Shown here: positions 1 through 57,837 of the stretch, piece after piece
How the letters are laid out: every line of letters begins with the position of its first letter
How positions within the stretch are numbered: position 1 is the stretch's first letter
NCBI GenBank assembly: GCA_015179125.1
Contig: WHVA01000103.1
Location: forward strand, 124,001 to 188,000
Direction of reading: 5' to 3'
Source of the DNA: Gautieria morchelliformis
Lineage: Eukaryota > Basidiomycota > Agaricomycetes > Gomphales > Gomphaceae
Length of the DNA: 64,000 nucleotides
Position numbers and translations under genes: made by a program
Notes under the pieces: model-generated
Seen by the model: only the letters and a program-made list of their open reading frames with translations
Database searches by the model: none
Told to the model about the DNA's origin: nothing

Positions 1-867
1 AAAGACACTCATAAGATAGCTAAATATATCGTCACATTCCAGCAGCTCGCTCCTCGAGTCCAATGGGGAGAAGCCACACTCCGACGCCAGTTTTACATGG
101 GCTTGCCATCCCGGATCAAGGATGAAATTGCCCGCGTCGGAAAACCCGCCACCCTTACTGACCTTCGCAACCTTGCCCAATCCATCGATTCGCGCTACTG
201 GGAAAGACATTCTGAGATCGCTCGCGAAACTTCCGCCCAGAGCAAGAATGACAAGTCTTCCGACAAGAAGTCCGACAAAGACAAGAAGAAGACTAATTCC
301 GGAAACAACAACCCCGGAAACAACAACCCCGGAAACAACAACAACAGTTCCGGATCCAACTCCGGCAACCGGAACAACAACTCCACCCCTCGCAACAACC
401 AGGCCTCTGGTTCCAACACCAACACCCGGAAGAGCACTCCGGACCTTTCCGACAAACTTGGGAAGGACGGAAAACTAACCCCTGTAGAACGCCAGCGTCG
501 CATGGACAACAACGTTTGCCTTTTCTGCGGCAAAGGCGGTCACGTCGCTCGCGATTGCACCCGAGCTTCCGCTTCCGCTGCAAAGGCCAAAGGCCATGCA
601 GCGAAGACGGAAGAGAAATCCGAAGCGGCTCCCGCTACGGATGCAAAAAAATACTCAGCAGTCCTCCGGCCTCCGCACGAGCTGAGGGCTGTGTTGACCC
701 CATTCGTGCGACAAATGAGGTTAAACTCAACACATCCGCTCTTTCGTCCTCCGACTCCCTCTCTGTTCCGCTCACTTCCGACACAATTTCCGCACCCCGT
801 TCACAGCACTGGTCGACTCCGGTTCGACTCATTGTTTCCTCGATTCCGACTTTGTTTTGAAACATAA
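1..867 (+). pseudogene. gag: gypsy-1 Gag (nucleocapsid), 5' partial
   Basis: Frame 1 is open from base 1, so the start codon lies upstream; the first internal ATG is at 97. The N-terminal part is a helical retrotransposon Gag core. A low-complexity Asn/Pro/Gly/Ser/Lys linker follows at about 290-470. One CCHC zinc knuckle (C-x2-C-x4-H-x4-C) lies at about 520-560, inside CLFCGKGGHVARDC. Gag packages element RNA into cytoplasmic particles, and the knuckle binds RNA. The protease follows in a different frame (frame 2, seen from 797), so gag and pol are separated by a frameshift between about 650 and 797. The last 60 or so codons of this frame are probably out-of-frame read-through. Whether the shift is programmed or a mutation cannot be told from one copy. 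Confidence 0.85.
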
Positions 868-3800
868 ACTTCCGACCCGCAACATTCCGACTATTCCGCT
901 CCGCCTTTTCGACGGATCTTCCAACATGGCAATTTCTCAAGTCGTGGATCTGTCTATCCGTTTCGCTACTGGGGACAACCATGAAGTTACGTTTTACGTT
1001 ACTCCACTAGATGCTAGCTGTTCCGTTGTACTAGGACACAATTAGCTCACCCGATATAATCCGTTGATTAACTGGGCATTGGGTCAAATACAGTTCCGTA
1101 CCCCGGATCAACTTCCGTCTATTCCGACGTCGTCCGCAAAGATGGCTCAGGCCTCTTCTGCAACTCCGCTTGTGGATTCAGTTCCGCACTCCGGTCCCGC
1201 TTTAGCACCTCCGCCCCTTGAAGCTCCTCGAATTGCGCTCGTTTCCGCCACCACTTTCCACGTATTGCAACGGCAATAAGACACGACCGTTTTCCAGCTT
1301 CACCTTTCCGACTCGGCTTCAGTCAAGGCTCGTTCCGCCTCAACTTCCGCTCCGGTCGACATGAGCTCAGTTCCGGAAGAATATTGTGACTTCCCAGACA
1401 TGTTCAATAAGGCCAAAGCCGACAAACCTGCTGAACATCGACCTTATGATTTGAAGATAGATTTGGAAGAAGGAGCATCTCCGCCCCTTGGACCGATCTA
1501 CTCTCTTTCGCAAAGTGAACTCCAAACTCTCCGCGAGTTCGTCGATGAACATCTCAACATGGGCTTTATCCGCCCTTCGCTGTCTCCACACGGCGCTCCG
1601 GTCCTTTTCGTCAAGAAGAAGGATGGATCTCTCCGACTCTGCGTCGATTTCCACGGACTCAATGCCCTCACCAAGAAGGACAAATATCCGCTTCCGCGCA
1701 TTTCCGACCTACTCGACACTCCCCGCAGGGCGAATATCTACACCAAAATTGACCTCCGGCACGCTTATCACCTTGTCCACATCCGGGAAGGTGACGAGTG
1801 GAAAACCACTTTCTGCACCCGCTACGGTGCCTTTGAGTGGGTTGTCATGCCTTTCGGTCTAACCAATGCTCCCGCCGCTTTTCAGTGATTCATGAATGAC
1901 GTATTTTCCGACCTTCTCGACGTATGCGTCCTAGTCTACATTGACGACATCCTCATCTATTCCGACACACCGGAAAAATATTGGGAACATGTCCGCGAAG
2001 TACTCCGCCGTCTACGCAAACACCATCTCTACGCAAAAGCAGAGAAATGCGAATGGCATCGCGACACGGTTGAATACCTCGGCTACATCCTCTCTCCTAC
2101 AGGTCTTACCATGGCAGAGGACAAAGTCAAGGCAATTCAAGAATGGCCGGAACCCTGACGTGTTAAGGATGTACAGTCTTTCCTTGGCTTCGCCAACTTT
2201 TACCGGTGTTTCATTTATAACTTTTCCGACATTACTGTTCCGCTCACGCATCTCACCAGGAAGGGTGCCCCATGGAATTTTACTCCGGAATGCCGTTCCG
2301 CATTTGAAGCTCTCAAATCGGCCTTCACTACGGCTCCCATACTCGGTTTCTGGATTCCTGATGCCCAACCTGTACTCGAAACCGACGCTTCCGACTACGC
2401 GCTAGCCACCATTCTTTCCATCATTTCCCCCAACGACGGAGAAATTCATCCGATCGCCTTTCATTCCCGCTCCTTTTCCGCCCTGGAACTCAACTACGAC
2501 GTCCACGACAAGGAACTACTTGCGATTTTCGAAGCCTTCAAAATCTGGAGACACTACCTCGAAGGTCCAACTTTTCCGATCGACGTTGTAATGGATCATA
2601 AAAACCTTGAGTATTTCGCGACTACTAAGATTTTGACTCGCCGTCAAGTCCGCTGGTCTGAATATCTCTCACAGTTCAACATGGTGATCCGCTTCTGCCC
2701 CGGAAAGCTCGGAGCCAAACCCGACGCGCTCACTAGACGTTGGGACGTCTACCCAAAAGAGGGAAGTAGCGACTATGCCAGCATTAATCCGCACAACTTC
2801 CGCCCAGTATTCTCCACTGAGCAACTGGCATCGTCCCTGCATGCCACAGCATTGCAGTTTCCGCTACTCCACGCCTCAACCATTATGGACACCGAGTCTC
2901 TCCATTCCGACATCCGTTCCGCACTCCGTTCCGACCCCATCTCCGCAGCCCACCTCAATGACCCCACCAGTCCTGGATGGTCCCTTGATTCCGACAGATT
3001 TCTCCGGTACAAGTCCCGGATTTACATTCCAGATACCAACGATCTACGACTTCGTGTGCTCCAGCAAAGCCACGATCATCCGCTCTCAGGACACCAAGGC
3101 CAGAACAAAACCCTCGACATAATCCGATGTACCTATACTTGGCCTCTCCTCCGCACGATGGTCCAAGGCTATTGCAAGTCATGCACCACCTGTATGCGAG
3201 CCAAGCCTCAACGTCACAAACCATACGGCCTCCTGAAGCAGCTTCCGATCCCGGAACAACCGTGGAATTCAATATCCATGGATTTCATTGAGAAACTTCC
3301 TAAGTCATCTGGCTATGATACCATTCTAGTGATCGTTGACCGCCTTACAAAGCAGTCCATCTTTATTCCGACCTACGACACCATCACTTCCGCCCAGCTT
3401 GCACAGCTCTTTGTGCTCCACATCTTTTCCAAGCACGGAATCCCTTCCCATGTCACTTCCGACCGTGGATCAGAATTCGTGTCATCCTTTTTCTGCACAC
3501 TCGGCAAGGCTCTCGACATGAAGCTCCACTTCACTTCCAGTTATCACCCCGAAGGAGACGGACAAACGGAACGTACTAATCAGACCCTTGAGCAGTATCT
3601 CCGTGTCTATTGCAACTACCAACACAGCAATTGGTCCGACCTCCTTCCGCTCGCGGAATTTGCCTACAACAATGCGCCTTCCGCTACCACCGGAATTTCA
3701 CCCTTTTACGCCAACAAAGGCTACCACCCGAATCTCGCCATCCACCCTGAACGCGACCTCACCTCTGCAAGAGCCCGAGATTTTGTTGTGGAACTCGACG

Positions 3801-4357
3801 ACCTTCACCAGCACCTCTGAGAGAACATTTCCGCCGCCCAGAAAAGATACCAGACTTCCGCCGATCAGAAACGACTTCCGCAACCGGCATTCGAGATAGG
3901 TGACAAAGTCTTCGTCAAAGCTGAAAACTTCCACACCACTCGCCCCTCGAAGAAGCTCTCTGAGAAATACCTTGGCCCTTACGAGATCATCGCTAAGGCT
4001 GGCAGTCGTTCTTTCACCCTCAGACTTCCTGACAATATGCGCGCAGTACACCCGGTATTCCATGTCTCCATGCTTGAGCCCGCAGTTCCAAATACAATTC
4101 CGAATCGAGAACAACCTCCGCCTCCGCCAGTTATCATCGACGGAGAACCGGAATATGAGATCTCGGAAATTCTCAACTCCAAGCTCAACAGACGATACCG
4201 CTGCCAACTCCAGTACCTAGTCAAGTGGGCAGGCTATGAAAACACCGACGAAGAGACCTCGTGGATTTCCGCCACGGAACTAGACCACGCCTCTGACCTC
4301 GTCACTGATTTCCACAAGTCTTATCCTGATAAGCCTGGCCCCATTTCCGCGCCCTAG
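797..4357 (+). pseudogene. pol: gypsy-1 Pol: protease, reverse transcriptase, RNase H, integrase, chromodomain
   Basis: One frame runs from the protease to the chromodomain, broken by stops at 1043 (TAG), 1277 (TAA), 1886 (TGA), 2156 (TGA) and 3818 (TGA). In order: retropepsin with a LVDSGSTHCF motif near 812; reverse transcriptase from about 1400 with catalytic VYIDD at about 1935; RNase H at about 2380-2640 (ETDASDY, then MDHKNLEYF); HHCC zinc-binding domain of integrase at about 3060-3200; DDE integrase core (SMDFIEKLP, TSDRGSEF, and the Glu of the GDGQTER block); chromodomain at about 4150-4340 with YLVKWAGYE. The terminal TAG is at 4355. The protein copies element RNA into DNA and inserts it, and the chromodomain usually targets chromatin. 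The internal stops read as decayed Arg, Trp or Gln codons. Confidence 0.93.
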
Positions 4358-4486
4358 TCATTTCCGACCTCATTTCCGATGCCCCATTGAATCTTACAGA
4401 TCTCAAGTTATATGTCAAATCCGATTAATATTCCGATACACTATTTTCCGACACTTCAAGAAATTATCTACAAGACCTTTCAACCC

Positions 4487-5748
4487 CTACTCCTCCTGCA
4501 TTGTTTCCCCCTCACCCTCGTTCTCCGCTTCCGGACCTTCTTCCGCATGGCCTATCTCCACGTTCGTCAATTCAGTCTCCACCCTCGCTTCCGCCCTTTG
4601 GCTCGTACCCGCTTCCGCCTCGTTCTCCTGCTCCTGCATGCGCACCTCCATGCGATCCCGGAGCAAGTCGTTCCGCCACCAGAATTCCCGTTTGAATTGT
4701 TCCAAAACCGTCGACATGACGGTCATCTGGTTTTGGAATGACAGCAACTGCTGTTCCTGGACCACCGCCATCTCCGCAAGGAGGTTCCGGATCCCGCGTT
4801 GGGTTTTCTGGATGCCCCTCAACGAATCGGCGATGTCAAACAAAGGGGATACCATGGAGAAGCGGTTGAGCACCGCTGTCTCCGAGTTTCCGGTCACCGG
4901 AAATCCTTCCGCGACCTTTTTTCCGCTTGGTCCCGGTTTCGACTTAGGGGTTTCAGGCCCCTCGGTCTCAACCCTGCGCCTTTTCCTTTCCACCCTCACG
5001 GCACAACCGTCCACAACACAGCGCCTCTTCTTGTCCCGACACTGTTCGCAGGAGGTTTCCCGCGGATTCTTGGACCACACGCAATCCCGCCCCTTGGTTT
5101 TGCATGGGTTGCACGGGGCTTTCTCTTCTTCGTCATCGTCCCTCATTTTCCGTTTCCTTGTAGCAGGATTTTCCGGCCCCAACTCCCGCAACTCCAGTAT
5201 CTGGGTCATCTTCTCCTTCCGAGCCTTCTGGAACTCATCCGCCCTCCGTTTCCGCTCTGCAACGATGTTCGGCATAGGAGCACCTTCCTTCTGCTTCCCC
5301 TTGCTCTCTGGAGTCGGTGTGCTTTCCGCACTGCTTTCCGCTTCCGACTCCCCCTCGGATACTACGACCCTCTGGCAGTTTTCCCGTGAGCTTGGGAACA
5401 CACCACATGACATTTCCGACTCACCTGGGATTTCCCTGCCTTTTCCGCCGCGGCCTTGTCTTCCACAGCTTTTTTCGCCGCGTCCCGTTTCCACTGCTCC
5501 TCGCGGAGGCGCGACTCCTCCTCGCGGTGTTTACGGTCCTTTTCTTCCCTCTCCTTCCGCTCCTGCTCCCGACGCTCCTGTTCTTTGCGCTCTTTCTCCT
5601 TGCGCTCCTCCTCCAGACGCTCCCTCTCTTTCCGCGCGGCTTCCTCGGCCTCGCGCTTTTCGGCCAGTTCCTTCTGCGCAAGCATGTCAGCAAAGTGCTG
5701 CTTCATCTCGGCACTGGTCATTTTGGAGAAGTCGATTGGAGTGCTCAT
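4487..5748 (-). CDS. Antisense accessory protein of gypsy-1: coiled coil plus Zn(II)2Cys6-type cluster
   Basis: This gene lies between the chromodomain and the 3' LTR, on the strand opposite gag-pol. Two overlapping open frames join cleanly through a GT-AG intron at 5424-5372 (donor GTGAGT, acceptor CCAG), giving about 402 residues. Residues about 20-100 are Glu/Lys/Arg-rich and predicted coiled coil. Six cysteines at about residues 195-226 (bases 5113-5018) have the spacing C-x2-C-x6-C-x10-C-x2-C-x6-C, which fits a fungal Zn(II)2Cys6 DNA-binding cluster, with a basic RDKKRR stretch. A second amphipathic helical region lies at about 280-340 and the tail is acidic. There is no internal stop, in contrast to pol. 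A related gene lies in the same place in gypsy-2 (47348-49763). The function is unknown. DNA binding is inferred from the cysteine spacing only. Confidence 0.72.
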
Positions 5749-5854
5749 GATGGATTAAAGCGAAGACGTGTTTGTTTCCCGCCTATCTTTCAAACTCCGA
5801 CGCATTTGTTCACAGGTCACGTGATCCGACTTGTGGCCTCGCGGGGCTCGACCT

Positions 5855-5868
5855 TAGAAGGGAGATAC
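5855..5868 (+). other. Polypurine tract of gypsy-1
   Basis: A purine-rich run (AGAAGGGAGA) ends three bases before the TGTTAC start of the LTR. This is the expected site for priming plus-strand DNA synthesis. Confidence 0.7.
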
Positions 5869-6560
5869 TGTTACGACCGTTCATTTCCGACTTCCGACCC
5901 TCAGTTCCGCAGCACCTTCCGCCCCTCCGATATTTCCACAACACCTTCCGCCCCTCCGATATTTCCGACATTCCGCCCCTTGTACATTTCCCTTGTTCTT
6001 TCGACTCTATTACTCGGACCCACCGGACCCACCTCACCGTTCATCAAGATCATACGTCCGGCCCTCCTTGTGTTTCGTTGTCAGATATGTTTTCCCGACC
6101 CCTTGTTCTTTGCCATTGTTCTACCTTACCCTGAACCCCCCTTGTAGTCCCATTGTTCCCAATTAGTTAGTTCCCACGCATTGTCTACTCGACTTCCGCT
6201 TCCCCCGGAATTTGCTTAGTACCATATCATTACCTGTTGTCTCAGCTCTTTGTATAAAAGCCTGTCATGTATGTCTCTTATTCTGCAATCAGATAATCGC
6301 CTTCGATACTTGATTTCCTTCGCTCCATCTCCTGTTCTTAGTACAGCGAGTCTAGCAAGATCTCAGTCTCTCTCCCCCTTCCGTCTTCCGCCTTCCGCCT
6401 CAGTTCCGACTCAAGTTCCGACCAACCTTGGGTTCAGTACTTTCCGACTTCCGACTCAGTTCCGAAATACTTAGGACGATAGTTCATTGGGGGCGCAACC
6501 TATAAGTTGAAGCCGCTGTCCTTTCCAGTTCTGACTTAGTGGAATTCTCGATACGTAACA
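5869..6560 (+). repeat. 3' LTR of gypsy-1 (692 bp)
   Basis: It starts TGTTACGACC and ends ATACGTAACA, so the ends form a perfect 6-bp inverted repeat (TGTTAC/GTAACA). The left part carries tandem copies of a short TTCCGCCCCTCCGATATT block. A TATA-like GTATAAAAG lies at about 6251, a likely promoter element. A second, 5'-truncated copy lies at 33652-34270. The 5' LTR is outside the window. Confidence 0.92.
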
Positions 6561-7368: not shown

Positions 7369-8044
7369 CACTGGAGGCATGGCAAAATTTCTTAAGTCAG
7401 GAAACCTTCTGAAAAAGCCTATGGAAATTCCATGTTTCTTGAGAGTTTCCTGAGACAGGAAATTTAAAGGAAATTTAATGTTGTACAAGGGTTTCAAAAG
7501 TTCAGGAAATTGTATAAAAATTGTAAAAATATGGCCCAGGAAATCATGAGAAAACTGGCTCCAGAAACTGACAGTTTAACCATGATTTCCTATCTAAAGA
7601 AATCATGGGTAAATTCTAAATTTCTTCACAGTTTTCTGGTACAGGAAAATATTAGGAAATTGTGCAAATCTTGGCAGGAAATCTTGTGAAAATTTTATAG
7701 TTCTCTATGATTTCCTGAATCTGGAAATTATACTAAATATTCAGTTTCTAGTAGCAGGAAATTCACAATATCTCAAATATTTCCTGAGGATTTCCTGGGT
7801 TGGGAAATTGTCCAGAAATTGGAATAGCAGTGCACGTCAGCGCACAGGGCGTTGGTGGCTGGTGCTGTCAGTGCATGGTGCGCTGGTGGCTGGCGTTTTA
7901 TACAATTTCCTGAACTTTGGAAACCCTTGTAAAACATTAAATTTCCTCTAAATTTCCTGTCTCAGGAAACTCTCAAGAAATGGAATTTCCATAGGATTTC
8001 TCAGAAGGTTTCCTTACTTGAGAAATTTTGCCATGCCTCCAGTG
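7369..8044. mobile_element. Long palindromic (foldback) element with CACTG ends
   Basis: The left end CACTGGAGGCATGGCAAAAT is matched in inverse by the right end at 8025-8044. The arms are inverted copies of each other for well over 100 bp, and much of the 676 bp is built from AGGAAATT-like units. There is no coding capacity. The terminus CACTG(G/C)AGGCAT is shared with the smaller element at 41089-41486. The flanking triplets differ (TGA and CGG), so no target duplication is visible, and the flanks may have been rearranged. A CACTA (EnSpm/CMC)-type non-autonomous element is the best guess from the termini. Confidence 0.7.
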
Positions 8045-9130
8045 CGGCGCCGGTGTCCCTTATGCAGAGCTGCCTTGCGGGCTTTAGGTTCGGCACAAGC
8101 CCCATCTCCGACTCAAAGTTCACGCTCTGCGAGCACCTTCCGGAGAAGGGGCTTGTACCAAGATGCCGCGAAACAGGGCCGTCTCCCGCCACCTCTACCA
8201 CCAGCCACACACTTACGGCTTCACTCATTATAACAATCTACTAGACCATATGTCTCTTGAGCTCCCCAGCTAGTTAGAATTGCTTGATCACTGAGCAGCT
8301 GTCTTATATCCCATTGGGAATAGTGGGGGTGGGCACAATTGTGCTATCTCACTTGTCAACACATTACAGACGGCCGCTCATTGATTTTTATGGACTTCTA
8401 TAGTTGGAAATGTATGCCAGATATCCTAAATATTTTTAGAAGCAAATGGAACAGCTTGATCGCTATGATAGTAATGGTACGAATAAATTGACTGGAACGG
8501 TTTCAAACCTTTGGGCAAGGAGAAGAGAAGAGAAATGTTAATAGCTCAGAATATGATTCCCAGATGACTCAGGAGAGAGAATATGCCAATAAGCCTGTCC
8601 TCTAGAATGTCTTTTCATGATAGCAGCCGGAAATCTCCCCAGGACACGTCGATGTCCATTTTTGCGGTAAAGCGCAGGCGTGCTTAAAGTCACATGACGT
8701 AACGGACTGTCGACACCGTCGTCTGGAAAAGTGCCTGGTGCTGCCCCCACCGGTCACCGAGCAGGAAAGTAATCCATGGGATCACTTTAAAACATACTAG
8801 AGGTCATTTTTATAATTTTTTAAAAATTATTCTTGAGTGACTGGTTCAACTACGTGCCTCACAAGCCATTTGTCACTCATCCCAGAAGGCACATACATCA
8901 TGACATAATTAAATTGATTCTTAGCTATTCACACAGGACAAGTTGTCAGAATACATCTCTGTTTCAATAATCTAAAGAAACCTTGACTCGAGAGGTGTTG
9001 TGGCCAACGCAGCATCGTGAGGAGACGACCCCTCTAGCGCGGCATCTTGGTACAAGCCTCTCCTCTGGAGATGAAGTCGGAGCTTCAAGGCTTGCCGAAC
9101 CTACGCGGGCTTAACGGAATTCGGCACCTA
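8045..9130. repeat. Inverted pair of a short repeat around an unassigned spacer
   Basis: The block at about 8080-8170 (containing GGCTTGTACCAAGATGCCGCG, read in two parts) recurs inverted at about 9030-9125. The roughly 860-bp spacer shows no coding signal. This could be a degraded inverted-repeat element. Confidence 0.45.
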
Positions 9131-10770
9131 AAATTGAACCGCCGCGCACTCTCTGAGCTAAGCCGGCGGCAATACTATTTCACGGTTCACCGGGGCCAGT
9201 GCCGCCTGGCACCAACCGCCGCTGACTTTCGGCCGTCAACGGTGGCAATTACCATTTGCAGCACTCGCACCCACTCGCACCCACCCCCATCTGCACCGCG
9301 CGCTGTTGCACGTTGTCACACAATGCGTGGCACCGTGGTTCACCACGTCCCATCGAACGTCGCTCGCACCCAACGCTAAGGGGCCGCCATTTGTGCACCC
9401 TCGAGTTCCACGAGGAACGTCGTACCCACTCGCTCCCCCTCTCAGGTGAGCGATGTTATCTAACGTTCAGCGCTGAGACTCACCTGCCCCACCTGCCCTT
9501 GGCCTCACTCCCTGTACCCCGCCGCCCCCTCGTGCTTGACATCGTATCCCGGTCATTGTCGCTTGCCGTCCACTCGCGCTTTAGGTGAGCGATGTTATCT
9601 AACGTTCAGCGCTGAGACTCACCTGCCTCACCTGCCCTTGGCCTCCCTCCCTGTACCCCGCCGCCCCCTTGCGCTGTACACCGTATCCCGGTCATTGTCG
9701 CTCGCCGTCCACTCGCGTTCCACCCCGCGATCCACCACTCAGCGATGCTCCCTGTCCACATAGGCCACAGCCTCGACCATCATTTCCGAGTCGGGCCGCA
9801 CGCGGGGGGAATGGGCACTTCTTTGCGTGTACAGAGAGTAGAGTCACGACGCAGGTCCCATGTCACATGCTCCATCCTCGCGCATGGAGAATCACCCAAG
9901 CCCATGGCTTATGGGTCGACAGCCTTGTTCCAGGCTTCTACACCTTCCTTCATTTCGCACTGAGCATATTTGTTCTTAACTGAACTGAATGGCATGCCTA
10001 GTAATTGCAATTCAGTTCAGATAACATAGATTGGGAACAAATATCTCAGAAATTTATGGCGTATGATAGACTATTCTACGATCTGCAAGGTCACTAAAAG
10101 CCTTGGCAGACTATGCTAGGACAGACCATATAGGAGAAGGGGCAGATCAATACATGTATTATGCTTCCCTCTGGGTGGCATAATGAGTACAAACGGGCAT
10201 GCCCACCGTCCGTCAGCAATATGCACTATTTATCAGTGGCGGGTAGTACTCACCGCAGGCCACATGGTGTGTGGCTACCCTGCGTCGGTGTTCGAGGCCG
10301 TGAGGTACAGGCCGGCCGTGGACAGCATGAGTCAGCACTGCTGCACACCGGTGGCCAGCGCTGTGCACCGGCGATTACCACCGTTTAGCACCACACGGCG
10401 CTAACCCCTGTGAACCGTGTATAACTCACTATTTCGGGTAGCTGGATTTCAGTTTTTCGACTGTGTTCACCAAATCAGCAGATTTGAGATACTGCCCGAT
10501 TAGCGCAGTTCGCAGATTTTGGTCCAACAGCGTCCGATCCTAGCACTGCGCAGCGGCTAAGTGTTCTACCTGAGGGGCTCACACACACCCTTTATAGCTC
10601 GCTCACGCGGACGCCTGTCTGCACTCAATCGCTGTGCCCCCCACCACGCAGAGGTAAACCGCAGCGTTGTGCGCCTGCTAACCGAGCTATAGACCCGCAG
10701 GTTTTGTGCGGCACACTCTGAGCACTGAGCTCGTGGAAATTGCCTCTTTAGCTTCAAGCTTCAGCTGATT
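9131..10770. other. Unassigned region
   Basis: Apart from the tandem repeat at 9444-9721 and a small hairpin at about 9966-10045 (arms around AACTGAACTGAAT and ATTCAGTTCAG), I recognise nothing here. The open frames are short and their composition does not look coding. Confidence 0.3.
9444..9721. repeat. Tandem duplication, 2 x 139 bp
   Basis: AGGTGAGCGATGTTATCTAA begins at 9444 and again at 9583. The two units are nearly identical through a C-rich stretch ending near CCACTCGCG. Confidence 0.85.
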
Positions 10771-39099: not shown

Positions 39100-39193
39100 T
39101 TACAATATGCCTCGGGTGGCAGGCGAGTGGCAGGCCCTCATTGGAAACAGGTTCATAGCTGAGCAGAGGGACTATGACCCTGTTGAAGAGAGG

Positions 39194-40461
39194 TGTTAAG
39201 ATTGGTTTTTAGGCATCAATATCGTGTATTAGTGAACACAGCGAATGCCCAAATAACTTATGTGAATAAGTATGCCATTCGGCGAATAGGGTGAACCAAT
39301 AAATGTTCAGAAGATAAGAGGGCTGCCCAATTGGGGCTCACCCTATCTACAGTTGTAGCGAAATAGCCCATGGCACTTGATGATGTAATGTGCAAGGTGT
39401 CACGGCAAGGTTGTTTAAGTAGCAACAATCCTTTCGCCGGTGAAGGCTCTCCTTCGGAGCCCTTTGCCAACAGCACAGATAATAGTTCGAAGGCTAAGGT
39501 AACGAAGATGAAGTATGAAAACTCACCAGTGATGCTTAAGTCTTCCTCTGGTTGAAGATAGAAATCTATAGGAGAGGGCTCAAGTTGATAGTCACAGTGA
39601 GGTCAAGTTGTGCACAAGATAGACGTATGATAATTGAACTGGGGAATATACATGTGAATGTAGACTAGTTATACCGAATGCTCATATGATGCTAGTGAAT
39701 AGGAAAGAGGCCGTCTTGAGTCAGGGTTGGATAGGGTGCGCAGTCAGGATACAGAAAATATGGAACATGTATACAATAGGAACAGGGAGGAGTGCGAATG
39801 TGAAACGATGGAGAGAAAAGATGACGAAGGCACCTATGTATGAAAACACACCTTGAGACATGCATATATGTTACCCTGCACGGACTCTTCGTCTGCTGGG
39901 CTGATCCCACAGGATCTACAGTTAGGACGTCCTACGAATGCATGCTGGCCATATGAACACCTAAAGGGGTTGCATCGGGAAGATGATGGGGCCAGTGATG
40001 AACCATCATGCCGGGTAGAGGATGTCAATCATGTTTGATGGTGTGCCTGGTGGCAAATGATGCGAGCAGCGACTGGTCGTTTGGCAAATGTGGCGAAGGC
40101 TGAATGCATCGATCATAGACGAGGCGTGGTCGGAGGGCAGGGTGAAGTCGGGTGAACGCGAAGGAGGAGTGGTGAAAGGGGAAACAGGGACAGCTGGGTG
40201 CAGGAAACACATGGGTCGTGACAATCCGGCCATAGGAACATCCAAAAGGGGCTCGAGCCGAGTAGGTAAGAGAGTCAGTAATGGACCATCAAGCCAGTCA
40301 AGGGACATTGATCGTGTTTTGATAGCGTGGCCATGGCGAGTGAGGCGAGTAGCCAAGATCGTTTGGCGAACTCGGTGAAGGGCAATCAGAGTGAACATCA
40401 AGGTGGAGTGAAGAAGGGAAGGACAGGGCTACTGGGTATAGGAAATAAACGCGTCATGACA
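39194..40461 (-). repeat. Solo LTR, family ABC, copy A (1268 bp)
   Basis: The ends are TGTTAAG...CATGACA on the plus strand, and the element is oriented on the minus strand. It is flanked by AGAGG on both sides (39189-39193 and 40462-40466), a 5-bp target duplication. It is homologous to 47634-48663 and 59463-60446. It is about 240 bp longer than those because an internal segment near 39960-40200 is roughly duplicated at 40220-40420. It interrupts the Helitron helicase. Confidence 0.9.
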
Positions 40462-47347: not shown

Positions 47348-49763
47348 ATGCCAGATGCACGTGAAAATCCCATCAGCGAGGTCGAGGAGGTTGATGAGGT
47401 TGACACGGAGCAAGCGCAGGCTGAGCGCGAAGCTGCGGAGCGGATGAAGGAGTTGCAGGAAAAACGATGACTTGTGCAGGAGCGCCAGGCAGCTGCGGAG
47501 AAGAAACGGTGGGAGGACACCGAAAAAGCCGAAGCGGAATGGAAGGCGCAGGCCGAAGCTGCACAGATAGCGGAAGAAGCACGGCTAGCCAAAGAGGCAC
47601 GGAAAGCTGAGGAAGCTCGGGAAGCCGAAGAGGTGTCATGACCTGTCTATTTCTCTTACCCCACTGCCTCTATGTTCCCCCTCGTCACTCCCTAACATCT
47701 TCGCCAGCGTTCGCCTCACCCTTCGATCACTCTTCCCCTACGTCCACTCTATTCACTGTTCTCCCCATTCTCCGAACCGCTGTTCGCTGCTTGAACATTT
47801 CGCCAGCAGGAACGCCATCAAATTCGATCGATACCATTTACCTGGCGTGATGATTCATCACTAGCCCCATCATCTTCTCAATCCAACCCCTTTGGGTGTT
47901 CATATGGCCAGAATGTGTTCACGGGACGTCCCGTCTGTAGGTCGTGTGGGATCAACCCGGTAGACAAAGAGTCTGTGCAGGATAGCATGCATGCAGGTCC
48001 CAAGACATGGTTTCGCACATAAGTGCCTTTGCCACCTTTACTCTCCATCGTTTTATGCTCGCACTCTTCCCTCACTCTATTGTATGTTTATTTCATCTAT
48101 TTTGTATCACCACTGTGCACCCCTATCCTACTCTGACTCACGACGGCCTCTTTCCTATTCACTAATACCTTACGAGCATTCGATATAAGTAGTTTACATT
48201 CACATGTATATTCCCCAGTTCAATTATCATACGTTGTCCATCTTGTGCAAACTTGACCTCGCTGTGATCATCGTCTTGAGCCTTCTCCTGTAGATTTCTA
48301 TCTTCGACCAGAAGAGGACTTAGGCATCACTGGTGAGTTCTCATACTTCATCTTCGTTACCTTAGCCTTCAAACTATTTTCTGTGCTGTCGGTGAAGGGT
48401 TCCGAAGGAGCGCTTTGCCAGCGAAGGGATTGTCGCTACTTAGACAACCCTTCCGTGACACCTTGTACGTTACATTGTCAAGTGCCACGGGCTATTTCGC
48501 TACGACTGTAGATAGGGCAAGCTCCATCCAGGCAACCCTCTTATCTTGTGAACATTTATTGGTTCACCTATTCGCCGAACGGCATACGTATTCGCACAAG
48601 TTATTCGGGCATTCGCTGTGTTCACTAATACACAATATTAACGCCTAAAAACCAATCTTGACAAGAGGCTAGGAAAGCTGAGGAAGCGTGGGAGGCGGAA
48701 AAGAGGGCTTTGAAGGTGAAAGCCGTTGAGGCTCGGAAAGCGAGGGGCCCGGTAGCCGAACGTGAGCAACTTTGACTATTTGCTATGTTGGAAGCTGAAA
48801 AAAACCGACAAGCCGATGTGAATCAAAATTATCACATCCCATCGCCCGAGCCATTAATCATGGACTCGGCAACTGCACAGGCGCGGATATTGGCCATGAA
48901 GCATGCAGCCGAAAGAAATGTGGGTAAGGCAAAGCTGAAAGCCTCAGGGTTGCGGAAGCGGAAAATGACCGAGGAGTCAGACGAGGAAGAGTCTGAGGAA
49001 GAGGTGAGTCCTCGGTCGGGTCGGGTCGGTTCGGTTTCTTTTTTGACTTATATTTTTTAGCGTGAACCTTGCGACACATGCAGATGTCGTCAAGCCCAGT
49101 GCTTACGCGGGAGGAAAACTGCATGTCAGCAATGCATGGACCGGAAAGTCTGGTGCAGCTTCCTGGATGGGAAGCAGAAGCGGAAGGATGAGGATGCGAC
49201 CGAGGGACAGGGGCCAAAGAAGGCCAAAATGTCTCCGGTCAAAGCCATCGGGAGCCATACCGACAGTTGACATCCGTATGGGGCCGTCGGGCATGGGGAT
49301 AAAGGGTCTGAAACCCGATGGGTTTTCGGGAGCGGAAGTCTCCCGAATGGTGAGGGACTTGTTGTCCCGGCAGAGCGAACAACTGGAGCGGAGCAACCAC
49401 TTGCTCCAGGGTGTCTTGGACTTCATGCAGCGAATTGAGTGGCACAATTCCAGACTAAACAAGTGGCTGGAGTTGTGGGCCACAGTGGCCGAGAACGCGT
49501 CCTTATGGATGGGAACCTGTTCGGATTGGGGCAGGTTCGATTTGGCTGGGTGTTTGGGTTTGGGTTTGGGTTTGGGTTCAGGGGAAAAGGGAGCGGAGGA
49601 AAGGGATAAGGGAAAAGAAAAAGAGAGAGGGGAGACAGAGGGAAAAGTGGGAGCCAGGTCGGGATTGGATTCAGGTTCGGAAGATGGGAGCGGGGAAGAT
49701 GAGCAGAATGACGGGGAAAAGGGTGCGGGAGCGGATGAGGAAGAGACTATGGAAGACAACTAA
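47348..49763 (+). pseudogene. Antisense accessory gene of gypsy-2: coiled coil plus Zn(II)2Cys6-type cluster
   Basis: It has the same place, orientation and layout as the gypsy-1 gene at 4487-5748. The ATG at 47348 starts an Ala/Glu/Lys/Arg-rich coiled-coil region, cut by the solo LTR at 47634-48663. Reading resumes in frame after the target duplication. It holds TGA stops at 47468 and 48773. RKRKM and an acidic run lead to an intron at 49004-49060 and then the cluster at 49070-49156, spaced C-x2-C-x6-C-x7-C-x2-C-x6-C. A one-base shift between about 49160 and 49270 follows. Then comes a helical region (VRDLLSRQSEQLERSNHLL) and a long acidic tail ending EEETMEDN, close to the EGETMQEE end of the gypsy-1 protein. 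This copy is dead, but its similarity to an intact copy shows a conserved gene. Confidence 0.75.
47634..48663 (+). repeat. Solo LTR, family ABC, copy B (1030 bp)
   Basis: The ends are TGTCATGACC and AATCTTGACA, with an inverted TGTCA/TGACA. It is flanked by AGAGG on both sides (47629-47633 and 48664-48668). Removing the element and one AGAGG restores the reading frame of the antisense gene it interrupts. Confidence 0.92.
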
Positions 49764-49999
49764 CTAATGTTTTTGTTGTTTTTTGTATCCTAATATGAAT
49801 CTTTTTTCTTGGTACTTTTTGTTTCTGAATTGGGATCGGGAACGGAAGTGAATGAACAGGCAGAGAGAGGGAAATCCGAGAACTACAAGTGTAGCTATTT
49901 GGCAAAACGGCCGAGAATAAACATAGCAAAAGAGTGTTTGTTTTTTGTCTAACTAAGAAAATTACCGTCAAATGAGAGAAAGGAAACAGGGAGCCGAAG
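49764..49999. other. Spacer between the two convergent gypsy-2 genes
   Basis: The stretch is T-rich then purine-rich, with no coding signal. It separates the 3' end of the antisense gene from the chromodomain end of pol, so the two genes converge here. In gypsy-1 the matching gap is about 130 bp (4358-4486). Confidence 0.5.
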
Positions 50000-52900
50000 C
50001 TCGGGTTCAGGGAACGCATGGTCCAGGCTTGGCAGGGTGGGCTGAGTGAAAGTTGATCACGATCTCGGCTGTGTGGCTGAGCTTGGTTGCAAGGACCCAT
50101 GACGTCTCTTCATTGGTATCTTCATAACCAGCCCAACGGACAAGGTACAGGAGATTACAGGGTCTACGGCATCAGTCGATCTTGGAATCAAGAATTTCAG
50201 AAACTCATACTCTGCCTCGCCGTCGACCTCGACTGGAGGTGGTGGACACTGAACTCGGTTCGGGATGGTATTCAGGATTGTGGGTTTGAGCATGGAGACG
50301 TGAAAGACTGGGTGGACTGCCCGAAGGTTATCTGGGAGGTGTAGAATGTAAGCTTGGGATCCAGCCTGGCCAATGATCTCAAAGGGACCGAGGTACTTCT
50401 CAGCCAGCTTCTTCGAGGGCCGTGTTGTCCGGAAGAACTGCACTTTCACAAACACGGAGGATCCTATCGCAAACACAGGAGCAGGAGCAGGACGCGTGTC
50501 AGCCGAGACCTGATACCGAGATTGAGCAGATTTAATTTGCTCTTTCAGGGCAGTGTGAAGCTGGTCAAGGTCTACTGCGAAGTCTCGGGCTCGGGAGGAT
50601 GCGAGGTCCCGTTCGGGGTGAACTGTGAGGTTTGGGTTGTATCCCTTGTTGGCAAAGAAGGGTGATATGCCGGTAGTTGCACTGGGAGCATTGTTGTATG
50701 CAAACTTGGTAAGTGGTAGCAATTCGGACCAGTTGTCCTGTTGATAATTGCAATACACATGAAGGTACTGTTCCAGAGTTTGGTTGACACGTTCGGTTTG
50801 ACCATCACCTTTGGGATGATATCCCGAGGTGAAATGCAGTTTCATGTTGAGAGCCTTGCCCAGGGAACGGAAAAAGTGCGAAACGAATTCCGAACCTCGG
50901 TTGGACGTCACATGGCTAGGGACACTGTGCTTCGAGAAAACATGCAAGATGAACAGGCGGTTGAGGTCTGCGGATGTGACCGTGTCGTAGGTCGGGATGA
51001 ATATGCTCTGTTTGGTTAGGCGGCAAACTACTACAAGGATTTCAGTGAATCCTGAAGACACTGGCAACTGCTCAATGAAATCCATGGAGATGGAATTCCA
51101 AGGTTGCTCAGGTATCGGAAGCTGCTGCAGGGAGCCGTAAGGCTGATGACGCTGTGAATTTGAATGCAAGCAAGTAGTGCAGGACTTGCAAAAGTCGATA
51201 ATGAAAGACCGAAGTGCGGGCCATGTGTATTCCCGTCTGATGAGTTATAAGGTCTTTTTTTGACCGAAATGTCCCAAGAGTACATGATCATGTTTGTACT
51301 GGAGTACTTGGAGCCGGAGATCATTGGCATCGGGAATGTATATGTGGCCATCGAGGCGGAGGAAACTGTCCTCAGTTTGCATCCATCTCGGGTCGGAACT
51401 GTCGCCGAGATGCTTAGTGGCTATGGGGTCGGATGCCAGGTTAGCTAGTATGTCGGCATGAAGCTTCTTGGAGTCCATCACAATGCTTGCCCGGAGAACA
51501 GGTTCAAGCAGACAAGTTGCCCGGAGGGATTCCAACAGTTGTTGATTCATGAAAATTGGTCCGAAGTTTTGCGGGTTGACTGAGCCGTATTACCTCCCTC
51601 TTTAAGGTAGACATCCCATCGTCTAGTTAGAGCATCGGGTTTTGTACCGAGCTTTCCAGGACGGAACCGGATAATGAGGTTAAACTGTGAGAGGAATTCG
51701 GACCAGTGGGCTTGTCGTCGGGTTAGTAACTTTGTGGTGGCAAAATACTCCAAGTTTTTATGATCAGTGACAACGTCGATAGGGGAGCCGGAGCCCTCCA
51801 GATAGTGTCTCCAACGTTGAAATGCTTCAAAAATTGCCAATAGCTCTTTATCATGGACATCGTAATTTAATTTGACACCGGAAAATGTTTGGGAATGGAA
51901 AGCGACCGGGTGCAGGACACCTTCTTCATCTAACAAAGACAGGATTGCACCGAGGGCATAATCTGAGGCGTCGGTTTCCATGACCATAGGCTGGTCAGGA
52001 ACCCAATGCGACAGGATCGGAGCCGAAGTGAAAGCCTCCTTAAGGTAATTGAAGGACTTTCGGCATTCTTTGGTAAACGCCCACGGGGTGCCTTTTCGGG
52101 TAAGCCGGGTTAGGGGGACCGTGATATCAGAATAGTTATAGATAAAGTGGCGGTAAAAATTGGTGAAACCAAGGAAGGACTGTATGTCTTTTACCTTCCA
52201 AGGTTCAGGCCAATCGCGGATTGTCTGGAATTTGTCTTCGGACATGGTAAAGCCGTTGGTCAACAGCATATACCCTAAGAATTCCACGGAATCTCGGTGC
52301 CATTCACATTTGTCGGGTTTAGCATAGAGACCGTGTTTCCAAAGAAGCCGCAATACTTCACGGACGTGTTCCCTGTGTTTGACCGGGTCATCGGAGTAGA
52401 TGAGTATGTCGTCAAGATACACAACGACACATACATCAAGCATACAAGCCTGGCCTGTGCTTCGCTCCGGCCAGGATTTCAGGCAAGAATAATTCCATCA
52501 TATACAATGTTTTCCATTAGGTGATTGTCTAATGGAAAGGGAGTTGATATCTATTTCTTGAGAGAAGCCCTTAGGCCCATGGCATCACCAGCTGGCTGAA
52601 ACCCCATGTCCCCCACCATCCTCCACAGCCACCAACCCCAACCCCAACCCCAGTCCACCCCTGCCCCTGCTGGCCTGGGACATCCTTGTGCATCGCATGC
52701 CTCCTGCATGTCTCAACAGGGAGGAAGCCGCACGACATGGGTGTCAAAACAGGATTACATGTCTAAATTTTACCCTATAGTAACCCCCCGGCTGTATGGT
52801 GTGAGAAATGTGAGAAGTGTCATGTAGTGAGTAGAGCAAGTATTTACAGAAGATTAGCACCATTTAGCTTTGTATGTCATGACTGTTGGCTTATTACCAT

Positions 52901-53331
52901 CTGTTTTGGAATGATCTCTGCTGAGACATATTGTCGATCCATGTGCCCATCCATCATCAGAGTCCCTCAACACCTGTTTCAACCTAGTCTTATTAGGTCT
53001 TCAGAATTCACCCTTGTGCTTGGATTCATTGTTGAATTTTGATGACCTGCCACCGGACCTGACCATCCACCAGTCAGTATCCTGTGCACAACAGATGTGA
53101 GAATGGCGCTAGTTTCCAACACTGCAGATGGAACACACATGAAAAGGATGACAATGAATCGTGCATCATAGAATCACTAAAGAACAGGCAAAGTTCCTGA
53201 AGAGGAACCACCACTCACCAAGAATATCTCTGCATGCTTGGGGTTGGCAGATAATACCATACAACGGTGGGTGCAAGTATCCCGATTAATCAGACAGACC
53301 CTACCAATGGATGAGTAATCCTCGAAAAAAA

Positions 53332-53437
53332 ATGCAGATTGTTGCTGCTTCTGACTTGAGCGGGCTTGATGCGCGGGGGAACATGATTCGCTTTGGGGCG
53401 TAGTTTGAGCTCGAAAAGACTATCGTTGTGTTTATAA
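53332..53437 (+). pseudogene. AhpC/TSA-like antioxidant protein, exon fragment
   Basis: The frame reads LSGLDARGNMIRFGA, a TAG, then FELEKTIVVFI, directly before GTGAGT. This resembles the start of the thioredoxin-fold AhpC/TSA domain of fungal peroxiredoxin-like proteins (LDA-G--IRFG, then KTIVVFIRHF). The Cys-containing part that would follow the intron was not recognised. It is a scrap. Confidence 0.4.
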
Positions 53438-54503
53438 GTGAGTAGCCTGACTATGTGGTATGCGATGTGTTTGCTGAGGCTGGACGTACGACACCAAACC
53501 GAACGCCCCAACCCAACTTCGCAGTCTCTTGAACGGACCTTGACGCTCACCTTCTTGAGCGTCGCCACACCCGAAAACATAACCCTATAAAAGCTCCCGT
53601 CCCTCCTGATGATGTATTTCATCCAGATCATCCAACCCAACGAAACCCCGATCCATGTCGAATATCTTGTCAGTCTATTCGAGAAAAGTCCGCACATCAT
53701 CATAGAAGAAGAACTGTTCATCAAGGAATGGGCCATAGATGAATTTGTCACACATAATAAGACACGCGAACTCAAATTATCGTCTTGGAAGGAGAAAAAT
53801 CTTGACCAAGTACAGTATGCTATGTAGAGCCTTGAGAATAGGGTCCTTGGCATCCGATGTCATATCTTGAGACAATGAGAGCATTTGAACAGCCGAGGAC
53901 ACATGTGCAGTGACTCAGAACCTACAACAATAGGGTAGATGGTCGTATACATTTATGATGAGTGGATCCAGCTACCGGGACAATGTTCGACGAAAAGCTG
54001 TCAGCACGGCATGACACGTGAGACAGAAATGACAAACCTGTTACAAAGTACTTGTCAGTCACCTTCCTCACCTGCTGATGCCGCTACGAGACCCTCTTAC
54101 CCATCTGGCCGGCCTAGTAGGTCGACGACCATCCTCATCGAGGCGGCTGTTGGGGGCGGCGGCATGTGTGTGCGGGGGTGGGGGGATGTGCGGTGTGCCA
54201 GCATGGACGCGACGTCGTGAAACAACCCGATTTATCGATAGATGCTATGGATGCATGAGTAATCCCTGAAAAAAAAAAACCCCTCCAGCTGGTACAAAGA
54301 ACCCAATTAATCGGATGTACAGTATGAATGGATATGTAATCCCAGAGAAAAACCCCTTCGATTGCTGTAAGGAACACATTTAAATGGAGAGGCGCTACAT
54401 GTAATCCCTGAAGTAAAAAATAAAAGACCAGGAAAAATGAGGGCCGCATCCTATCTGCATCGCCACGCACTCCATAGCACAGGTCGTGTGCCCCGAGGAT
54501 GCA

Positions 54504-54662
54504 TCAACGTCCTTTGCGGGGTTCATCCTCCAGCCCCTGAGGAGGCGCTACCGTGAGCAGCTCGAGTGCTTCTCGATACAATGAAATTGCCTCAGCCAGG
54601 TCTTCGTGCCACGCCTCAATCCATGACGGTAAAGCTGCTGCGATGATGTGGAGGGAGGTGGA
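54504..54662 (-). pseudogene. TPR-repeat fragment inside the insertion
   Basis: The minus-strand frame reads EDLAEAISLYREALELL, a tetratricopeptide-type helix pair, then a Pro-rich tail and a stop. It is related in pattern to the fragment at 29582-29705. Only one repeat is present. Confidence 0.4.
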
Positions 54663-55119
54663 TCGTTGAAACTTATGAACCTGACGCAAATTGCCACGGT
54701 GGATCGTATGATGAGTGATTGAAATCATAGCGGATAGGCCGCACATACCTAATGTGTGAGGCATCCGTGTTCCCTCTGAACGATTATCCACCCATACGCA
54801 TGCTAGAAACCCATTTGCCGCAGATGACCGCTCATCTTCAGAGTCTATGGCAGCATCTCTGCCAATTCGGCTGTCCATGGTATATCACCGCTGCTTACTC
54901 CGTCTCCCTCCATGCAGCCCTCCATGCAGCGTAAGTACTCTTATTCCCCGAGAAAATTGCTCATACCTGACCTGAAACGACTATCCTCGTCCATCTTATC
55001 ATAAACTCCGCGAAGCGGGAACAGGGGCAATTCCCATGTGCAATCTTAGTTACTGTGTGTACATGACTTTCTTCCGGTATACCACAGTTCTCATTGACGA
55101 TTCGACCCGAAAGGTACAC

Positions 55120-56000
55120 TTATGCTTACAGAAACATCCTGCCTGCGAGAATGAAGCCAATATTGAAGTTAACTATCAGCCCATGATCTCAAAGATAGTG
55201 ACGCGAGGTAGAGATCGAACAGAAGCTCACCGTCGAGACTGCTTTCATTACCGTATGTTTGATTTCCCCTGTTTTGGACATGTGCTCATGAGGTTTGAAT
55301 TAGAAACACCACGCAGAACTGTTTCCCGACCTTACCAGGACACCTGCCGAGATTTTTGCTCTCGCTGCCGTCTGCGTGGCATTAAGAGATCGTCCTTCAA
55401 TTGGGGCACAAAATTCACTGTGGATTTCCCTGGGTGCTAGAAGGTGTGGAGGTGAACACTATGAACGGCTGATTACGCTTCAGACGGATTTGTCACCACT
55501 CCAAACGACCGTCCGCACTACCACCATGTCATCACTTTTGACATCCATCTCCCACTGGAGAGATTGTATTTACCTCGATCCCCGCGTCATTGCGGATGTT
55601 TCCACATTGTTGCCTACCCTCAATGGCGCAAAGCTGCGCACGACGATTGTTTCGCAAGCAGCTCCTCCAATGCCGCCTCCCAATTCATCTGCGTCTACTT
55701 CTATCGTGGAGCACCTACATATCTTCTATCATGGTCATAAGGCGACACCTGTACTTCCAGCTCCTACGTGGTTACAGGAGAAAGGCAAAGCCGTATTGAA
55801 TGCTGCGAAGGGGGTTCTCAAGGCACGTATGCCTAGTCTCGGAGTCGAAGTTAAGGTTGATATTGGAGACAGGGTAGAGATTGGGCTGGCTATCGTCATG
55901 CTTGAGAGCATGAAGACCAAAACTGTGCTTAGAGCTGATGGCGCTGGATCGATCAAGGGTATCGAGTCTGTCAATCAATGCTCACATCATGGCAATGTTT
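55120..56000 (+). pseudogene. Methylcrotonoyl-CoA carboxylase alpha subunit, C-terminal fragment
   Basis: At about 55155-55230 the sequence reads QPMISKIVTRGRDRTEA, the end of a biotin-carboxylase domain. After a broken stretch come AEIFALAAVCVALRD and LGARRCGGEHYERLITLQ. From 55526 an open frame continues with HLHIFYHGHKATPV and a biotinyl domain, LGVEVKVDIGDRVEIG and VMLESMKTKTVLRA; the biotin-accepting Lys is at 55913-55915. This order fits the C-terminal 300 residues of fungal MCC alpha, which carboxylates 3-methylcrotonyl-CoA in leucine breakdown in mitochondria. The N-terminal two thirds are missing, several frames are used, and the end is lost after about 55985. It looks like a captured host fragment. 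Pyruvate or propionyl carboxylases are less likely because of the ESMKT motif. Confidence 0.65.
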
Positions 56001-56840
56001 GGGGGAACAGGCGGTAGTCCAGGGGGGAAATGGTGGGAGCGGGAAAGGAGTTGGATGAAATTGAATCCGACAATGTCGCAGTCTTGCCAATGATTTTCCG
56101 AGTAGAAGAACTCCATTCATGGTAAGCTCAGGGCTCACAGCCCAAGAAATGTCGGAATCCAAGTGATCAACGAACTGCTACAAAGTGAGAACCACTGGCA
56201 CGATATCAGAGAGATCCGTGTAGAAGGAACTTACCTTATCTCGAACTCAGCGTGCGGCAGTAAACACCTGCTGAGACTGGCTGGCGGTGGCCCCATCGTC
56301 ATAGTCGCTCATGCGACACAGGAGTCCCAGGGAGCAAGGAGAAAGACCCACTAGGTCTATGTAGAAAGATGTAACGAACTCTTCAGCACACCCACTCCGC
56401 ATGCATGTACATGGGGGGAACAACTTACCCTCGTCCTTCCTGTCCATGATCGCCACACCATCCTCCTTTGCCATGGAGAACGGCTACTTGGCCTAAAGTG
56501 GAGGAAGACGTTTGTTGCATCTAAGAACGGAGCACAATGGAAGAGGTGAAGTAGGAGCGGACATAAAGGGTGTGGTTAGATAAGCAAAACAGATGCACCA
56601 AACGTAATCACGGGAATGTAGGAGAAGAAACCATGGATACGGATAAGTAAAACATAGCACACGTCACTGACTGTTGATTGATGATGGTAGTGAGCCCGTG
56701 CATGCAGAGGGAAAACCTTGGTAAGCAAACAGTGCAACACACACACAAAGCAGAGGAAGGGCCAATAGCCAATCACAGGAGTGCATATGAAGGACTGTGT
56801 CAGTTCTCAGCCAATAACATTTGACAGACAACATCACATG

Positions 56841-57170
56841 CCACCAAAACAGGGGAAAACATATGCAAACCCCTGCTACACCCAATCACATGAATGCTGA
56901 GTAACACTTGTCTGACACGATAGCCAATGAAGTGCCAACAATCCAACATCTCACAATGTCACATGGGTGGAAAACACGGTAAACTACTGGCAAAGCAATG
57001 CAAAGCCACCAAAACAGAGGAAAACATATGCAAACCCCTGCGACACCCAATCACACGAATGCTGAGTAACACTTGTCTGACATGATAGCCAATGAAAGGG
57101 CTACAATCTGATGTCTCAAAATGTCATATGGGAGAACACTGGCAAAGCAATGCAAACGAAATGGTGTCGT
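56841..57170. repeat. Tandem duplication, 2 x 165 bp, at the right side of the insertion
   Basis: CCACCAAAACAG(G/A)GGAAAAC begins at 56841 and 57006. Both units contain GAATGCTGAGTAACACTTGT and end near GGCAAAGCAATGCAAA. A more degenerate relative lies at about 56640-56840. Confidence 0.8.
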
Positions 57171-57837
57171 ATGCTTAATAGAAGATAGATCTCCAAAGAC
57201 GTCATTCATAAAACATTGAAAAACCGCAGGACCATTGGTCAAGCCGAAAGGCATGACTAGCCATTCGAACGAGCCGTACTGGGTCCGGAATGCTGTTTTC
57301 CACTCATTGCCTTCGGTGACTTGGACGAGGTGGAATGCATGCCAAAGGTTGATTTTGGTATAAATCCGAGCCTTCCAGGGTGCATCCAACAAGTCGGTAA
57401 TCAATGGGAGTGGATAGCGGTCCTTCTTTTTAATCTTATTGAGTGCTTGGAAATCCATGCAGAGCCGAAGTTCACCACTCTTCTTTTTGACAAAGAGGAT
57501 AGGGGCTCCATGGGAGGACCGAGTGGGCTGAGTGTACCCCAAGTTCAGGTGCTCATCAATGAAAGCTCGGAGCATGGCAAGCTCCAAGGTAGAGAGTGAG
57601 TATAACAGGGGTTGAGGAGGAGTAGCACCATCCTCCAAAGCGATCTTCAGATCATAGGGTCGGTGGGGAGCGAAGGCGTCACCCTTGGATTTACTAAAGA
57701 CATCCGCGAAGTCGTGGTACTCCTTCAGAACATCCTTTAGATCCACCAGATCGGGTTGCACAGAGGCCAAATGGGCTGACGTCTTCGGTTCAGGTTGTGC
57801 CAGGTTTAGCTGGAAACATTGGGAACCCTCTAGTTTG

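Follow-up and report, generated by a model that had tools for sequence, protein, structure and literature searches.

A conserved antisense gene in Gautieria chromoviruses encodes a probable zinc-cluster-like protein that may read family-specific DNA words

What is a stop-free, two-exon reading frame doing on the strand opposite the polyprotein gene of an LTR retrotransposon, and what might its product recognise? The question is raised by a locus in a 64,000-nucleotide stretch of Gautieria morchelliformis contig WHVA01000103.1 (the window), where an earlier note had described an antisense gene of about 402 codons, joined across a GT-AG intron, lying between the chromodomain and the 3′ LTR of a chromovirus and encoding six cysteines with fungal Zn(II)2Cys6 spacing, flanked by coiled coils. 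Reading of the window bore out the stop-free two-exon structure, and mapping of the element bore out its location.

The element is a chromovirus (Ty3/gypsy LTR retrotransposon), given its LTR pair, its reverse transcriptase-RNase H-integrase order and the chromodomain at the C-terminus of its integrase. The part lying within the window occupies positions 1-6560 (plus strand) and is packed with the word TTCCG, mostly in one orientation. Its pol gene (725-4357, plus strand) encodes reverse transcriptase, RNase H, integrase, SH3_Tf2-1 and the chromodomain, with Pfam domains RVT_1, RT_RNaseH, Integrase_H2C2, rve (32.1 bits, just under the cut-off of 32.6), SH3_Tf2-1 and Chromo, and contains five internal stops in addition to the terminal one. 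The 3′ LTR lies at 5868-6560 (plus strand) and the 5′ LTR upstream of the window; the two repeats (L017:1457-2094 and 8769-9461) are 90.6% identical. Elsewhere in the window, a TTTCC-rich inverted repeat (7435-7519 and 7896-7980; 85-nt arms, 96% complementary, 376 nt apart) resembles a small MITE or foldback element.

The antisense gene (5748-4487, minus strand, 402 codons) lies between the end of the chromodomain in pol (4357) and the 3′ LTR, on the strand opposite pol, and thus shares with HBZ of HTLV-1 the feature of adjoining the 3′ LTR. Exon 1 (5425-5748, 108 codons) holds the ATG and a charged, E/K/R-rich region resembling a coiled coil; the 53-nt intron (5372-5424) begins with GTGAGT and ends with CAG; exon 2 (4487-5371) comprises 294 codons followed by TAG.

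We searched the genome (122 Mb, 1113 contigs) for exon 2 and found at least 133 matches, those scoring best among 733 first-look candidates; 110 of these 133 have no stop inside. A set of 20 copies, the window's included, was taken from the best 25 exon 2 matches, a choice that favours good copies. The ATG, GTGAGT and CAG are all present in each of the 20, the intron varies between 52 and 57 nt without being held to multiples of three, and changes in exon length are mostly multiples of three. All six cysteines are complete in 19 of the 20 copies, one being lost in L031, and the antisense frame shows a single stop in 7946 codons. Single-nucleotide length changes occur in seven copies (L023, L024, L028, L029, L030, L032 and L034) and a 104-nt insertion in L025; an early stop follows in L024, L025, L028, L029, L032 and L034, and none in L023 or L030. 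Across 190 pairs the gene has a dN/dS of 0.23 (ratio of means), far below 1, and exon 2 one of 0.21, whereas exon 2 read in its remaining frames yields 1.0 to 1.6, with one exception discussed below. Among ten stretches tested, the lowest value (0.10) falls on codons 190-235, the region of the cysteine cluster, and part of the C-terminal helix (codons 310-355) gives 0.12.

The association with pol is equally regular. Among 106 pol matches, 76 places resemble the family of the window element (family A), and a gene match was sought up to 3 kb from the 3′ side of each. A listed gene match was found near 33 of the 76, on the opposite strand in all 33 cases and 273-424 bp away, which answers in the affirmative whether such genes sit antisense in gypsy elements; the other 43 places have no gene match among the matches listed, which allows no conclusion. 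A further pair, lying within 4 kb and on the same strand, is probably L018, an internally rearranged family A element with pol inverted relative to the gene and LTRs 97.7% identical.

The antisense frame is in all likelihood a genuine conserved gene, a claim strongly supported by the copies, the intron ends and dN/dS, and by the sister families described below. Two outcomes that the earlier note had named as refuting it, a general lack of the cysteine cluster in other copies and a dN/dS near 1, did not occur. Its transcript would be spliced, judging from the conserved GT-AG intron. One argument of the earlier note fared less well: its stop counts, five in pol against none in the gene, are correct, but as a sign of conservation the contrast is partly one of composition, because the window gene has no CGA codons and pol has 13, CGA becoming TGA by C-to-T change, and CpG decay is visible in the family; the case for conservation is therefore made by dN/dS and the intron. 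Of 7501 CG cases, 1611 had changed to TG or CA (21.5% per dinucleotide, which offers two sites), compared with C-to-T changes of 2.7-4.6% per site at CC, CA and CT and with 12.4% changed in a cruder GC control.

The gene is more diverged than the element that carries it. Over the same 171 pairs, dN and dS are 0.032 and 0.160 for pol and 0.094 and 0.413 for the gene. Measured in 400-bp bins against the window copy, the LTRs and pol of 19 copies have diverged by about 2-9%, whereas some bin of the gene (window 4556-5748) has diverged by 15-19% in 13 of the 19, and the bins differ between copies; in the remaining six (L018-L023) no such peak sets the gene apart. From this pattern we infer that elements otherwise alike have apparently swapped old variants of the gene, as a mosaic cassette.

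Two sister chromovirus families, B and C (pol 67-70% identical), each carry at the corresponding position an antisense Cys6 gene of their own, strongly diverged. Family B is represented by a second chromovirus in L024, whose pol is 67-69% identical and whose antisense frame reads CARCEERDYTC, 15 residues, CVWCRTRSLGC; the cluster is complete in L024, L044 and L045, lacks one cysteine in L042 and is split in L043. Family C is present in the window as an old, decayed element on the minus strand, with inferred boundaries at 47731-60447 and pol around 50016-51589, between LTR-like repeats (47731-48663 and 59515-60447) that are 79.6% identical. Its Cys6 frame, CDTCRCRQAQCLRGRKTACQQCMDRKVWC, lies at 49061-49267 (plus strand), with an upstream frame at 48776-49060 and a downstream helix frame at 49047-49763 in another phase. 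The LTR-like repeat of about 930 bp occurs three times in the window (39192-40118 and the two copies above, which appear to bound the old element), the copies being 80-84% alike and one of them inverted. In another family C copy, L046, the cluster is CDNCYRRKVSCIRGTNMACRDCNSRKVHC, and in L047 and L048 the second half alone was seen in the frames read.

By profile comparison, the clusters of A and C are homologous (E 1.8e-5, probability 78%), no homology was detected between the antisense proteins of A and B (E 0.34 and 0.53), and the match between C and B is weak (E 0.36; 0.029 in the cluster). What ties B to the others is therefore position, strand and cysteine pattern. Across the three families the antisense proteins diverge far faster than pol. 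In a more distant family, D (pol about 40-46% identical), no antisense Cys6 frame was found at the 3′ end in L038-L041; family D could carry an extra gene elsewhere.

We then considered what kind of protein the gene would encode. Proteins of the Pfam family Zn_clus have the spacing C-x2-C-x6-C-x(5-12)-C-x2-C-x(6-8)-C. The cluster of the window copy (CNPCKTKGRDCVWSKNPRETSCEQCRDKKRRC, 5018-5113, minus strand) fits C-x2-C-x6-C-x10-C-x2-C-x6-C exactly, as had been claimed, and the linkers between the cluster halves of A (10 residues) and C (7) lie within the family pattern, whereas that of B (15) lies outside its range. The assignment to Zn(II)2Cys6 thus stands for A and C as far as spacing goes, and is not borne out by the Zn_clus profile (PF00172; gathering cut-off 21 bits), for which the best scores of A, B and C (9.5, 12.7 and 18.9 bits) all fall below the cut-off; the spliced A protein scores 8.8, and a second score for C is 12.2 bits. 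Zn_clus nevertheless heads the Pfam matches of B and C, and in A stands second, behind another weak match. In A the basic half, C-x2-CRxKKxRC, stands second, as if the halves had been swapped. The C cluster gave a weak match in the PDB to Cep3 (E 2). Neither DUF1985, the domain of VANC proteins, sought at E up to 10 with the spliced protein, nor a bZIP family was among the Pfam matches of A.

A single-sequence AlphaFold2 model places the cluster at pLDDT below 50 and predicts a long C-terminal helix (residues 282-383; 4547-4852, minus strand) at pLDDT above 90 over most of its length, a probable dimerisation coiled coil. Together with the coiled-coil-like composition of exon 1, this agrees with the flanking coiled coils described previously. 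The product is probably a Zn(II)2Cys6-like, putative DNA-binding protein that pairs through its helices. With fungal Zn(II)2Cys6 factors it shares six cysteines and, in A and C, a permitted spacing; it differs from them in its sub-cut-off scores, the linker of 15 in B and the apparently swapped halves of A, and in being encoded by a transposon, on the antisense strand.

If the protein binds DNA, candidate targets are found in the element itself. The 8005-bp family A element contains 112 copies of TTCCG (17.2 expected from dinucleotide composition) and 26 of its reverse complement CGGAA (8.2 expected), as compared with 6.3 of each per 8 kb in the rest of the window. At 20 loci the density of TTCCG tracks the element edges by eye, and the word is dense in pol, LTR and gene alike, with 7 TTCCG and 8 CGGAA in the gag piece (1-724). 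Pol holds 45 TTCCG (6.6 expected) and 13 CGGAA, and the 3′ LTR 16 TTCCG (1.9 expected) and a single CGGAA. In order to hold protein and codon usage fixed, we shuffled synonymous codons 500 times; none of the shuffles reached the observed counts in pol of A for TTCCG (45 vs 12.2 ± 2.9) or CGGAA (13 vs 4.5), and CCTCG was not in excess there (8 vs 9.7).

Family B carries other words, CCTCG/ACCTCG. In its pol, CCTCG occurs 33 times (13.2 ± 3.1 in shuffles, 0 of 500 reaching this), CCGAG 24 times (7.4), CTCGG 14 times (7.5) and CGAGG 12 times (5.0; 1 of 500), and TTCCG 10 times (6.0; 25 of 500); over L024:1-4040 there are 36 CCTCG for 7.6 expected and 10 TTCCG for 6.2. A 2.7 kb stretch of the B copy L042 has, besides CCTCG, eight TTCCGA where 0.8 are expected, possibly owing to an inserted neighbour. 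Both families show a strand bias (TTCCG 112 vs 26 in A; CCTCG 59 vs 18 in B), which is partial, as the reverse complements CGGAA and CGAGG are also in excess in pol of A and B respectively. Over 1157 aligned pol codons (67% protein identity), B has none of the 40 TTCCG sites of A, and A has 2 of the 33 CCTCG sites of B, whereas two A copies (the window's and L033) have 32 of 44 TTCCG sites in common.

Family C shows CTCGGC (12 and 10 copies in L046 and L047, for 1.3 expected) and CCGAAC (9 and 13, for 1.0 and 1.3). Its counts are small and mostly outside pol, the words are weaker in L048 and in the old window copy, where they are absent from the 57.2-59.5 kb piece, and CCTCG and TTCCG are also in 2-3 fold excess in L046 and L047. 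The word difference between A and B is thus clean, whereas B and C overlap, CTCGG/CCGAG being in excess in both. The triplet CGG is a common half-site of Zn(II)2Cys6 proteins; it is present in the A word CGGAA, in the C words and in CCGAG/CTCGG of B, and absent from CCTCG.

No marked excess of these words was seen in a further element of the window, family E (35.4-38.5 kb; its pol likewise shows none in shuffles), in a gypsy piece in L026 or in six control blocks; two other words do stand out there, AATCGC in family E (7 vs 0.6) and CTGCGC in the control block at 30-34 kb (9 vs 1.1). Family D, in contrast, has the A word: in pol of L040, TTCCG (16 vs a shuffle mean of 6.0) and CGGAA (12 vs 3.1) exceed all 500 shuffles, and L038, L039 and L041 show both in excess on both strands by dinucleotide expectation. 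In L038:1-1690 and L040:1-1690, from this abundant family, a Ser-rich pol tail is rich in TTCCGAC. A triple TTCCGAC pattern has 2665 matches in the genome, against 124 for the reversed pattern; as the matches listed fall by eye into A-type LTR or pol contexts and, about as often, D-type contexts, the figure cannot be credited to A alone. Between A copies, motif sites are kept only slightly better than other CpG words (69.8%, where 98 CpG 5-mers average 63.9% and the motif ranks 22nd), and motif CpGs were not spared decay (20.1% decayed, against 19.9% of other C-preceded CpGs). Tandem amplification of the word occurs locally, TTCCG recurring at 15-bp intervals in antisense exon 1 at L037:3593-3803, and a 12-bp unit, TTCCGACCTCAT, is repeated at C14:211148-211225 beside another gene match.

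Taken together, the diverged genes and differing words suggest, short of proof, that each element's protein recognises its own DNA, and the repetition of CG-containing words across each element lends indirect support to the proposal that the protein regulates the element; the overlap between the words of B and C and the excess of reverse complements weaken the case for self-recognition. The mechanism that we consider most likely, with a little less than an even chance as a whole, is the following. Antisense transcripts would start in or near the 3′ LTR and yield the protein; the protein would bind a short CG-containing word all along the element that encodes it (TTCCG/CGGAA for family A, CCTCG and CCGAG for B, CTCGGC and CCGAAC for C); the high density of sites would mark the copies of its own family; and marked copies would stay active against silencing by CpG methylation in the host, much as VANC proteins keep plant VANDAL transposons active. 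We prefer this mechanism because the anatomy matches that of VANC together with an HBZ-like placement.

VANDALs are DNA transposons. In Arabidopsis, VANC is an extra transposon gene with dense, mostly same-orientation words in its own family (PMC5735166, PMC10398659). VANC21 motifs are described as dense and in one orientation, and VANC6 motifs as different, while VANC proteins vary beside a conserved transposase, and the unrelated element AT9TSD1 carries the VANC6 word (PMC5735166). The chromoviruses share with this system the extra gene, the words and their differences between related families, a protein that diverges fast next to a conserved core enzyme, a varied exon-intron layout and an unrelated element with the word, here family D. 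A dense, mostly oriented and family-specific word separates A from B; for C it is weaker and overlaps B. The systems also differ: VANC words, as described, lie mainly in non-coding tandem repeats, whereas here they also run through pol; VANC has DUF1985 and the antisense protein a Cys6 cluster; and anti-silencing has been demonstrated for VANC, whereas for the chromovirus it is our inference.

A wider reading, which we hold more tentatively, is that of an independently evolved VANC-like code: the antisense zinc-cluster protein of each family would read a CG-word throughout LTRs and coding sequence, protein and word changing together as families split, with the gene forming an old cassette of mosaic make-up (its mean dS is 0.41, that of pol 0.16) and the unrelated family D riding on the word of A. 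Family D may indeed ride on the A protein, much as AT9TSD1 carries the VANC6 word, or the word may have another reader.

An alternative possibility, which we consider rather unlikely, is that the protein acts as HBZ does, at a few LTR sites, repressing or tuning sense transcription as a control of copy number, and that the body-wide word has another cause. HBZ is likewise encoded antisense beside the 3′ LTR of its element, by a spliced transcript that starts in that LTR, and is a DNA-binding-type regulator, and the 3′ LTR here itself has its 16 TTCCG. Nevertheless, the word is in excess in pol as much as in the LTR, which a regulator acting at the promoter would not need. HBZ is moreover a bZIP protein of a human retrovirus, whereas the protein here is zinc-cluster-like and belongs to a chromovirus, and we know of no element-wide repeated word in HTLV-1.

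Alternatively, the word might be an RNA signal, UUCCG, read by Gag or another RNA-binding protein for packaging, the antisense gene being unrelated. Strand bias would then be natural; but the reverse complement is in excess too in A, B and D, the DNA motifs of VANC21 also lie in one orientation (PMC5735166), and a CG in every word would suit a DNA or methylation context; we regard this explanation as improbable. Slightly less probable still is a case in which the words have no partner protein in the element, a host factor reading them or conversion tracts or slippage having left them behind. The excess of TTCCG/CGGAA in family D, where no antisense Cys6 frame was found, and the local tandem amplifications in L037 and at C14 speak for it; against it, A and B differ in their pol words within one nucleus, with no TTCCG site shared, and family E and the L026 piece are without the words. 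Finally, that the antisense frame is due to chance or mirrors a long sense frame (4284-5750, 488 codons) is hardly credible, as this frame, open in the window copy, sharing its wobble positions with the gene and with a dN/dS of 0.35, is refuted by 29 stops in 15 of the 20 copies, against one in the antisense frame, and the intron keeps invariant ends while varying in length.

It has been proposed that transposon-borne TET/JBP genes help elements of fungi to evade methylation (PMC12730594), and a fungal transposon gene thought to counter methylation-based silencing is what they would have in common with the antisense gene; they are enzymes on DNA transposons, whereas here we propose a putative sequence-specific protein of an LTR element. 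In the open-access literature searched we found no paper describing an antisense gene or word of this kind; descriptions may exist elsewhere.

Should only the gene prove real, it would still be unusual for a chromovirus to carry an antisense zinc-cluster-like gene under purifying selection, and we speculate that such genes could underlie some of the transcription-factor-like gene models in repeat-rich genomes. If the proposed mechanism is true, sequence-specific anti-silencing would not be a speciality of plant VANDALs, LTR retrotransposons having arrived at it on their own with another kind of protein, and the three families in one nucleus would form a natural set in which to follow how the specificity of a DNA-binding protein and its many targets change together.
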